A DNA stretch of 64,000 nucleotides from Utricularia gibba (taxonomy: Eukaryota > Streptophyta > Magnoliopsida > Lamiales > Lentibulariaceae), in the NCBI GenBank assembly GCA_002189035.1, contig NEEC01000004.1, positions 2,170,001-2,234,000 of the forward strand. The letters are read 5' to 3'. Positions 19,490 through 22,585 of the stretch are shown one piece after another. Every line of letters starts with the position of its first letter. The stretch's first letter is position 1. A program made the position numbers and the translations under genes. Under the pieces are notes generated by a model. That model saw nothing but the letters and a program-made list of their open reading frames with translations. It did not search any database and was not told the origin of the DNA.

Positions 19490-19670
19490 AACCTTGCATC
19501 TGCAAGATTTTCTCCGCGCAAGGGCTCTCCAGGTATACAGCGTATCTCACAGAAAGCTCCATCGGATTCCACAGGCAAGCCGTTCGTTTTTCTCACCTAC
19601 AGTACGGACAATCAGGAAATCTAGTTTAATTTTGCCTCTGAAGACGAAAAATTAGGGTGCAATGATGTGT
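19490..19670 (+). pseudogene. Decayed copy of LYRM2 first exon and intron start, in the PTGES2-like leader
   Basis: This stretch aligns with 22240-22420 (the LYRM2-like gene's exon 1 and intron start). Shared runs include CTGCAAGATTTTCTCCGCGC (against GCAGGATTTCCTCCTCCGCGC), the TATCTCACAGAAAGC / TGTCTCACGGAGAGC region and ACAGTAC. Similarity continues into the intron (TTTAATTTTGCCT / TTAATTTTACCT). A deletion of about 8 bp falls in the LYR motif, so it cannot encode LYRM2. It now forms the 5' leader of the next gene. Confidence 0.75.
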
Positions 19671-19856
19671 TTGTTTTCTCAATGAATTAGTGATCTTCCG
19701 TCTGGAATTATTGATGTTTACTAGAGGTTGAATAGAGAAGAAGAGTAGGTGACTATGATTTTTCTTCAGCACAATAAGTTTATTACCGTGTACCCTACCA
19801 AGGCTTGCTTGGGAAAATTATTGAATTTGTGGTTCTTTTGTCTGCGTGGTTCAGAA

Positions 19857-21909
19857 ATGAGAAGGATCAGAGGGCTTGCCGCCTTATATTGCTCCGTTGG
19901 TGGTGGAGCATCTCAATTTTCATCGGGCGCGAATCCGTCCAGCCGAATCCGTGTCTTTCAGACAGCGCCTTTCAGCAACTCCAGTGGTAGCATGTCCTCA
20001 TCTGGATGGAATGGACGTTTGTTTAAAACTCCCGCAGGCTATCGATCATCTGGTGCTGCTTTTCGAGTTGTTTCTGGGCCTATGCTGTTCTCTGTTGCTG
20101 CCAGCACGGTGGTCAGCGAGGTTTATGCCAAAGAACCCGTGCTGTCGGAGTTTCTGCCCAAAGAGGTTGTCCTTTATCAGTATGAAGCTTGCCCCTTCTG
20201 TAACAAGGTCAAAGGTACTTCATTTGATTATCAGCGATCCTTATATTCATATGTATGTCCCGTTCTGGATTTTTTTTCTTGGCCTTGTGTATTGTGATAT
20301 TCATGAGCGCTATATTATTTGGAATCATATTTAGTTTTCAGCAAAATTATCTGGCTTTTTTGTTCTTGTACAAACTGAGAAGTTGGTAGAGTTTTCTGTT
20401 TCACTGTACCAGTTTTTTTCCTCTTCTTTGTAGCATTTCTCGACTATTATGACATTCCATACAAAGTTGTCGAGGTCAATCCTATTAGCAAAAAGGAAAT
20501 CAAATGGTCGGATTACAAGAAGGTACCTATATTGATGGTCGATGGAGAGCAGCTGGTCAACTCCTCTGGTATCTATGATGCTGAATTCATGCTAATTTTT
20601 GTTTTCAACTTCCTGAAATTCTTAAACTCATTCTAATTTTGATTTTTCTTTCTAGATATCATTGATGGTTTGAAGAAAAAAATTAGCAATGACGAGGCAA
20701 CAGATTCAATTGCACAAGAGAAGGAGAAGAAATGGCGAAGGTATGAATTGCTAACATCCTGCTGTCTGCTAGGGATGCGGTGTTCGTTCTCCAATTTCCT
20801 TTTGCTCTTCAATCACTGAGTTGCTAGCTATTACCACCATTTCACTTTATTTTCTTCTTAATAGCAAACTCCGTTGGTTTTTCCAGTTGGGTGGATGATC
20901 ACTTGGTGCATTTACTGTCACCTAATATCTATCGAAGTGCATCTGAAGCCCTCGAGTCATTTGATTATTTCACCACTCGTGGTATGATTTTAATTGGATA
21001 TGCTTAGATTCTATTACTTCGAATTTCTGGAATGCATTTCATCTTTATTAGTGACTGTAATCTCGTCTTTTTGCATAAGGTATTTGTTTATGAGTTAAAT
21101 AAGAAACTTGTGGTTTCCCTTGTGAATTTGTACTGTTGCAAGATTATGAGTACTGCATTCCACATTGTTATGGATGGGAGTGGTCAATCTTTAGTGTGTG
21201 TCTAGGACATGCTTGTTGTGTCAATACAGTACCATGTTTGGCTATTAGGAACCAATTTTCAGGCCCTGGGATCCATCGCTTATATATGAGTTCCCACTTT
21301 CCCTTTTTAAGCCAGAGCATGTGTGTATGATTTTTTTTTTTTATCGAGCTTCTTCGGCTTAGTCTACATGCATGACCAGGAACGCACCTGTTCCCAATTG
21401 CCCATTCTGGACTTCCTGAATTATTACCAAATGTTATTAGCTTGACGTCTTGTTTTTTCTCTCTCCTGTTGATTTTTTCTTTGGCTGCAGGCAACTTCAG
21501 CTTTACTGAGCGACTAACAGTAAGATATGCCGGGGCTGCTGCGATGTACTTCGTATCAAAAAAACTGAAGAAAAAATACAACATCACTGATGAACGAGCT
21601 TCTCTGTATGAAGCTGCAGAAACATGGGTGGATGCCCTAGATGGTCAAGATTTTCTAGGTTCGCTGAACTCTTCACAGCGCTACATGCGCCTTTCTTACA
21701 TTCATATGTTACGAAGTGTACCATTCTACCATCCCCTTTCTGCAGGTGGAACTAAACCAAATTTAGCTGACCTTGCCGTGTTTGGTGTTCTGAGACCCAT
21801 CCGCAACCTGAGTTCAGGCCGAGACATGGTGGAAAACACGCGGATCGGCGACTGGTACGCTCGCATGGAAGCTGCGGTTGGACCATCCTCCGGACTCGAG
21901 TCATCCTAA
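19857..21909 (+). CDS. Prostaglandin E synthase 2-like protein (GST/glutaredoxin-fold, membrane-associated)
   Basis: Six exons: 19857-20214, 20434-20568, 20656-20740, 20887-20981, 21491-21658 and 21746-21909, giving 334 aa. The N-terminus [11 protein letters not shown] is basic and serine-rich, as for a mitochondrial or plastid presequence, followed by a weak hydrophobic stretch ([14 protein letters not shown]). A glutaredoxin-like domain follows with [13 protein letters not shown], carrying the redox-type CPFC, then [20 protein letters not shown]-terminal half ends in [19 protein letters not shown]. This is the PTGES2 family; the animal enzyme isomerises PGH2, but the plant substrate is unknown. 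The start is chosen at the ATG after a probable leader intron ending TTCAG at 19854. Intron 5 (87 nt) is in frame and stop-free. Confidence 0.92.
21659..21745 (+). other. 87-nt in-frame intron of the PTGES2-like gene
   Basis: Donor CTAG^GTTCGC and acceptor CTGCAG^GTGG bracket 29 codons without a stop. Removal restores the conserved [17 protein letters not shown]; retention adds 29 residues. The family alignment favours splicing. Confidence 0.75.
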
Positions 21910-22168
21910 TTCAAGATACTTTGGCTGACCGGAATAAGTGCCCTTCCCACCTGCCCCACCGGAAGTGGACATCGACCTGTTACAATGAAATGGAGGAGCT
22001 CGTATTCTTTGTTATATTATTCGACAACGTTTCGATTTTTAATCATATTTACATGTGTACTGTTTTCACCTTGCATTGAATTGGATAAGATGAACGTACA
22101 AGCACTCTGCACAGGTGGTCTGAATAGTTCAAGATTATGGGACATGCTTCAGCGTCGGTCTAATTCGT

Positions 22169-22183
22169 TGGCCCAGGCCCAAT
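22169..22183 (+). promoter_or_regulatory. GGCCCA-type motif pair upstream of LYRM2-like gene
   Basis: TTGGCCCAGGCCCAA lies 54-68 bp before the start codon. It is a site II-like motif (TGGGCY on the minus strand), frequent in promoters of plant mitochondrial protein genes. Function inferred. Confidence 0.45.
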
Positions 22184-22236
22184 TTGGTAGTTTCTAATGT
22201 AAAACGGGCCTCAGTCCGACTCTAGAAAGAAGATGA

Positions 22237-22585
22237 ATGGCCTTGCAATTGCAGGATTTCCTCCTCCGCGCTAGGGTTCTGAAGCTTTACAGACAAGCCT
22301 TGCGTGTCTCACGGAGAGCGCCATCCGATTCCAGAGGTCAGCCGCGCACTTACAGTACATTTAAGTAGGGAAATGCAGTGTTAATTTTACCTGTCGAGAA
22401 GAAAAGGTGAAGTCCAGGGGCGATCCGGATTTTTGTGTGTTTCAGATGAGATTAAGCGGATTGTGAGGGAAGAGATGGAGAGCAACAGAAGCTGCAGAGA
22501 TCGGCAAAGGATTCGGTTTCTGATCAGCGAGGGGCTGGAGAGGCTGAGGCGCTTGGATGAGACTCTTGATATGCAAGGAAACTGA
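22237..22585 (+). CDS. LYR motif-containing protein 2-like (LYRM2)
   Basis: Two exons, 22237-22336 and 22446-22585, encode 79 aa; both are too short to show up as ordinary open frames. Exon 1 reads MALQLQDFLLRARVLKLYRQ, with the LYR tripeptide, followed by ALRVSRRAPSDSR. Exon 2 reads DEIKRIVREEMESNR, then the RFLISEGLERLRRLDETL helix. This follows animal LYRM2 closely (QFLVRQQVLKLYRR..., WAREEFRRNK, ITQGNMQLKELEKTL). LYR proteins bind mitochondrial acyl carrier protein and assist complex or Fe-S assembly. The donor AGAG^GTCAGC and acceptor TTTCAG^ATG are canonical. An out-of-frame ATG lies 4 bp upstream of the chosen start. Confidence 0.85.

Follow-up and report, generated by a model that had tools for sequence, protein, structure and literature searches.

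The window (the whole stretch of Utricularia gibba DNA analysed here, 64,000 nucleotides) sits in a single 5.67-Mb contig of the assembly that we searched, which comprises 100.09 Mb in 516 contigs. Exons that are phospholipase D-like by reading of their translations occupy the minus strand up to ~16.7 kb, and are followed on the plus strand by a PTGES2-like gene and then by a LYRM2-like gene (Table 1). The protein encoded by the first matches prostaglandin E synthase 2 (PDB 1z9h, E 7.8e-67), carries the Pfam domains GST_N_3 and Glutaredoxin, and qualifies as PTGES2 (mPGES-2, GST-like) both by its Glutaredoxin/GST N-domain and by a similarity that spans most of its length. When translated, the two exons of the second give an intact protein of 79 amino acids with KLYRQ, which is a member of the Complex1_LYR family (Pfam PF05347, E 6.8e-17). 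DNA and protein searches detected one copy each of LYRM2 and PTGES2 in the assembly. No RNA families were found in 19200-22700, and a literature search found no report of the LYRM2-PTGES2 pair.

Table 1 Features of the PTGES2-LYRM2 locus (positions are those of the window; a slash marks the exon-intron boundary)
Feature	Position	Strand	Remarks
Possible LYRM2 promoter trace	19447-19470	+	Compared with 22176-22199: 18/24 identical (75%), GGCCC[AG]ATTT core, site-II-like
LYRM2 exon 1 copy, decayed (from codon 2 onwards)	19492-19574	+	67/83 aligned bases identical
Alternative GT donor	19533-19534	+	CAG/GTATAC; adjoins the 10-base gap; 3.79 bits, similar to annotated PTGES2 donors
Copy of first part of LYRM2 intron	19575-19650	+	Whole intron 72/97 aligned bases identical; weak similarity on to 19689
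GC donor	19575-19576	+	CAG/GCAAGC; homologous to LYRM2 GT donor position; 6.42 bits, best in 19440-19856
Candidate leader-intron acceptor	19853-19854	+	Two bases 5' of PTGES2 ATG; pyrimidine fraction 0.71, within coding-intron range
PTGES2-like gene, coding part, 6 exons	19857-21909	+	Intact 334-aa frame; ATG 19857, stop 21909
PTGES2-like coding exons	19857-20214, 20434-20568, 20656-20740, 20887-20981, 21491-21658, 21746-21909	+	
LYRM2-like coding exon 1, source of copy	22237-22336	+	ATG 22237; donor GAG/GTCAGC at 22337
LYRM2 intron	22337-22445	+	At least 22337-22405 duplicated upstream
LYRM2-like coding exon 2 with stop	22446-22585	+	No copy detectable upstream, except possibly first 9 bases
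Sarcosine-oxidase-like FAD oxidoreductase pseudogene	22850-23689	-	Stops and frame shifts; just beyond LYRM2

The dead sarcosine-oxidase-like copy past LYRM2 indicates that gene debris has accumulated here. Its relatives (L021, L022) form a tandem array near 1650-1657 kb of contig C4; they were called sarcosine oxidase-like by reading, and the Pfam result for the relative is DAO. The phospholipase D paralogue region on contig C375 contains neither LYRM2 nor PTGES2, and an earlier state of the locus was not seen there.

A preliminary description of this DNA had proposed that LYRM2 exon 1 and the start of its intron are duplicated in the leader position of the PTGES2-like gene. This was borne out by significant alignments. 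The local affine-gap score is 132, against a mean of 27.4 and a maximum of 46 among 1000 dinucleotide shuffles, and blastn of the two 261-base pieces gave 74 bits (E 3e-18; identity 68% counting gaps). The exon and intron parts taken by themselves scored 79 and 50, with shuffle maxima of 32 and 35, respectively (2000 shuffles each). The similarity lies where it had been described, except that the copied part begins at LYRM2 codon 2 and not before ATG 22237: positions 19492-19650 correspond securely to 22241-22405, which covers exon 1 from codon 2 onwards and the larger part of the intron, to about 70 bases into it. Protein-level comparison gave one clear LYRM2 match within the masked window, namely the upstream copy (E 7e-4, against 0.71 for the next).

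After a G+C filter only three local repeats were left in the surrounding 164 kb (spacing within 8 kb, G+C > 33%, E < 1e-8), the LYRM2 exon pair among them, while the background before filtering consisted mostly of AT-rich matches. Since the alignment scores far above its shuffles and such repeats are so few, the similarity reflects neither chance nor repeat background; with exon and intron also collinear, coincidence has practically no probability. Judged from the sequence, the duplication of LYRM2 exon 1 and intron to a position before PTGES2 is certain, and the direction of copying is clear because the downstream LYRM2 is intact and single-copy. Further copies of the block, which might have shown an earlier state, were not found in the genome by DNA or protein searches.

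Elsewhere in the window, two pairs of direct repeats with ~70-73% identity were observed (38602-38776/41005-41176, 2.4 kb apart, and 23820-24158/27368-27706, 3.5 kb apart); both were removed by the G+C filter and are thus AT-rich. An inverted repeat (45866-46478/46894-47427), ~75% identical over 616 columns with arms ~0.4 kb apart, could be a hairpin-type element or a transposon relic.

The optimal alignment extends to 19689 (equivalent to 22454, in the first codons of exon 2), with the similarity of the tail 19651-19689 not significant when taken alone. No upstream counterpart was detected for the remainder of LYRM2 exon 2 and the 3' flank. Similarity to exon 2 scored below the shuffle mean, so that exon 2 was either deleted or never copied, and a full LYRM2 duplication in which a decayed exon 2 is still present was rejected on the same score. 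The upstream copy may stem either from a whole-gene LYRM2 duplication that lost exon 2 and the promoter or from a short copied insertion. LYRM2-type pieces lie on both sides of PTGES2 in the same orientation, as would also be expected had a LYRM2 and PTGES2 block been duplicated in tandem and had PTGES2 then disappeared from the second unit and LYRM2 largely from the first. This history is disfavoured, and we consider it very improbable, because tblastn and blastn on both sides revealed no remains of another PTGES2; moreover, the DNA beyond LYRM2 is occupied by the minus-strand sarcosine-oxidase-like pseudogene.

The upstream copy lacks a start codon, and its exon part is interrupted by two gaps, of 3 and 10 bases. 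The longer gap takes the codons for Arg-Gln out of LYRQ and puts what follows out of frame, in agreement with the earlier claim that the LYR motif is incomplete. Where LYRM2 has its acceptor AG, the copy has none, although this observation depends on the weak alignment tail. With no ATG, a broken frame, a damaged LYR motif and no detectable exon 2, the copy falls outside LYRM2 and Complex1_LYR and is a pseudogene fragment, non-coding as had been supposed. It differs from LYRM2 at 8/55 sites in codon positions 1+2, 8/28 in position 3 and 25/97 in the intron, corresponding to Jukes-Cantor distances of ~0.16, 0.36 and 0.32, respectively (small numbers with a wide interval). Such values would be expected if the copy had been free to drift ever since it arose while LYRM2 was under constraint in codon positions 1+2, and no sequence constraint on the copy is detectable from the position-specific divergence.

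The 334 residues read from ATG 19857 are near the 315 aa of Arabidopsis mPGES-2 (At5g42150; PMC4138524), which places the PTGES2 leader upstream of 19857, where the copy is found. In the place that corresponds by homology to the LYRM2 donor, the copy carries a site that outscores all PTGES2 and LYRM2 donors on an approximate plant matrix composed from general knowledge; the LYRM2 donor itself is weak, and only 18 GT or GC sites on both strands of the 164 kb match the site at 19575 in strength. The ready-made splice donor proposed in the preliminary description is accordingly supported by the sequence, as the strongest candidate site of the leader and with a candidate acceptor at 19854, yet it is of the GC and not the GT type. 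The acceptor sequence ending at 19854 is CTGCGTGGTTCAG. A candidate intron from 19575 to 19854 (280 bases) would excise five upstream ATGs (19662, 19665, 19682, 19714 and 19755), while the exon copy 19492-19574 contains none. By its sequence, the relic combines homology above chance, a usable donor and an acceptor before the PTGES2 ATG. The homologous strong donor, the acceptor and the ATG-free exon make 19492-19574 a good candidate, and probably the 3' part of a PTGES2 untranslated first exon with a reused splice site. Against the use of the GC donor, only 1.49% of the introns of plants are of the GC-AG type (PMC7072748).

The copy could also be a mere dead LYRM2 fragment in the spacer, with PTGES2 transcription starting further downstream and the donor-like site as a remnant of the former LYRM2 donor, which we regard as a real but lesser possibility. 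It agrees with the lack of detectable constraint on the copy and with the other dead gene debris close by (the sarcosine-oxidase-like pseudogene), and the survival of a good donor through drift is plausible: in neutral-drift simulations from CAG/GTAAGC, a donor this strong survived in ~31% of cases, and as a GC donor in only ~2%. A strong ancestral donor may thus outlast neutral drift, and the good site at 19575 is no proof of its use. However, a transcript starting in 19690-19755 would meet the in-frame ATG at 19755, which adds 34 residues to the PTGES2 frame with no stop (19755-19856), and a start after 19755 would leave a leader of less than 100 bases. A downstream start is further disfavoured by the absence of a TATA-like motif from 19300-19857 and by a telo-box (19478) and an AGCCCA (19426) placed as expected for a start before the copy. 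Against a spliced leader, an unspliced transcript with ATG 19755 would allow a longer PTGES2 protein; if the leader intron is real, 19755-19856 is probably intron sequence.

Whether a ready-made promoter was copied along with the exon, as had also been suggested, depends on the DNA upstream of codon 2. There, the contiguous similarity stops: extension of the anchored alignment upstream of 19492 scored zero. What can be set on the side of that suggestion, weak at best, is a collinear 24-base stretch with a GGCCC(A/G)ATTT core, 20 bases off the main diagonal, which shuffles equalled in 0.2-0.7% of cases (P ~0.005; flanks of 80-200 bases, band of 25-40). Without the GGCCC motif, P rises to 0.17-0.18 and significance is lost; the stretch may be convergence, given how frequent site-II-type motifs are (113 TGGGCY in 164 kb). 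Neither the telo-box nor the AGCCCA, both a short way upstream, belongs to the securely copied block, and the telo-box has no counterpart at LYRM2. The LYRM2 promoter is probably not in the copy, or is there as a trace only. That PTGES2 is now driven by a LYRM2 promoter duplicated along with exon 1 is, in our estimate, unlikely. The same low estimate applies to the wider idea that a short duplication of the LYRM2 5' end including a promoter core made or replaced the PTGES2 transcription start and leader intron, which would give the two genes a shared regulatory origin and co-expression.

Our preferred reading, which we hold to be somewhat better than evenly probable as a whole, is that a LYRM2 copy arose upstream of PTGES2, decayed and now serves as a leader exon spliced from 19575 to 19854. 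In this history, a piece of LYRM2 with no less than exon 1 (codon 2 onwards) and the greater part of its intron was copied ~2.75 kb upstream in the same orientation. The copy would have been dead or nearly dead at birth, and it decayed, with no start codon, a broken frame and no 3' splice site. The duplication, the decay, the location and the homologous donor are established from the sequence. Lying directly before PTGES2, the copy is now most likely transcribed as its 5' untranslated first exon, with the former LYRM2 donor position, GC-type, presumably spliced to the acceptor before the ATG. Transcription through the copy, splicing and any benefit to PTGES2 are what we infer from this arrangement.

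Non-coding first exons that derive from duplicated genes or pseudogenes are known as a general class. The present case resembles it in that a gene's non-coding remains, lying at the 5' end of a different gene, offer a donor; it differs in that the source is the intact next-door gene, the homologous donor is now GC-type and transcription of the relic is a prediction. Organelle genes that moved to the plant nucleus capture the 5' ends of genes for mitochondrial proteins, and here too the 5' part of a mitochondrial-type gene was duplicated before an unrelated gene. In contrast to such captures, PTGES2 is not newly transferred, the promoter was not clearly copied, and the copied exon gives no targeting peptide, having a broken frame and no ATG. 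A literature search on presequence or promoter capture found nothing directly comparable. Repair of breaks in plants can leave short local duplications or copied filler DNA. A short, nearby-derived piece of ~160-200 bases with abrupt limits on both sides is reminiscent of such filler, whereas its breakpoints are too decayed to indicate a mechanism, and it could equally well be what deletions left of a larger duplication.

Duplicated gene debris serving as a leader exon is a kind already known, and the case is tidy but modest; with an intact source only 2.7 kb away, its steps can be followed directly. Should the copy be mere debris, the case is ordinary. If the proposal is true, the locus would be a compact example, set in a very small plant genome, of a leader exon and 5'-UTR intron arising from a broken exon of a neighbouring gene together with its donor.
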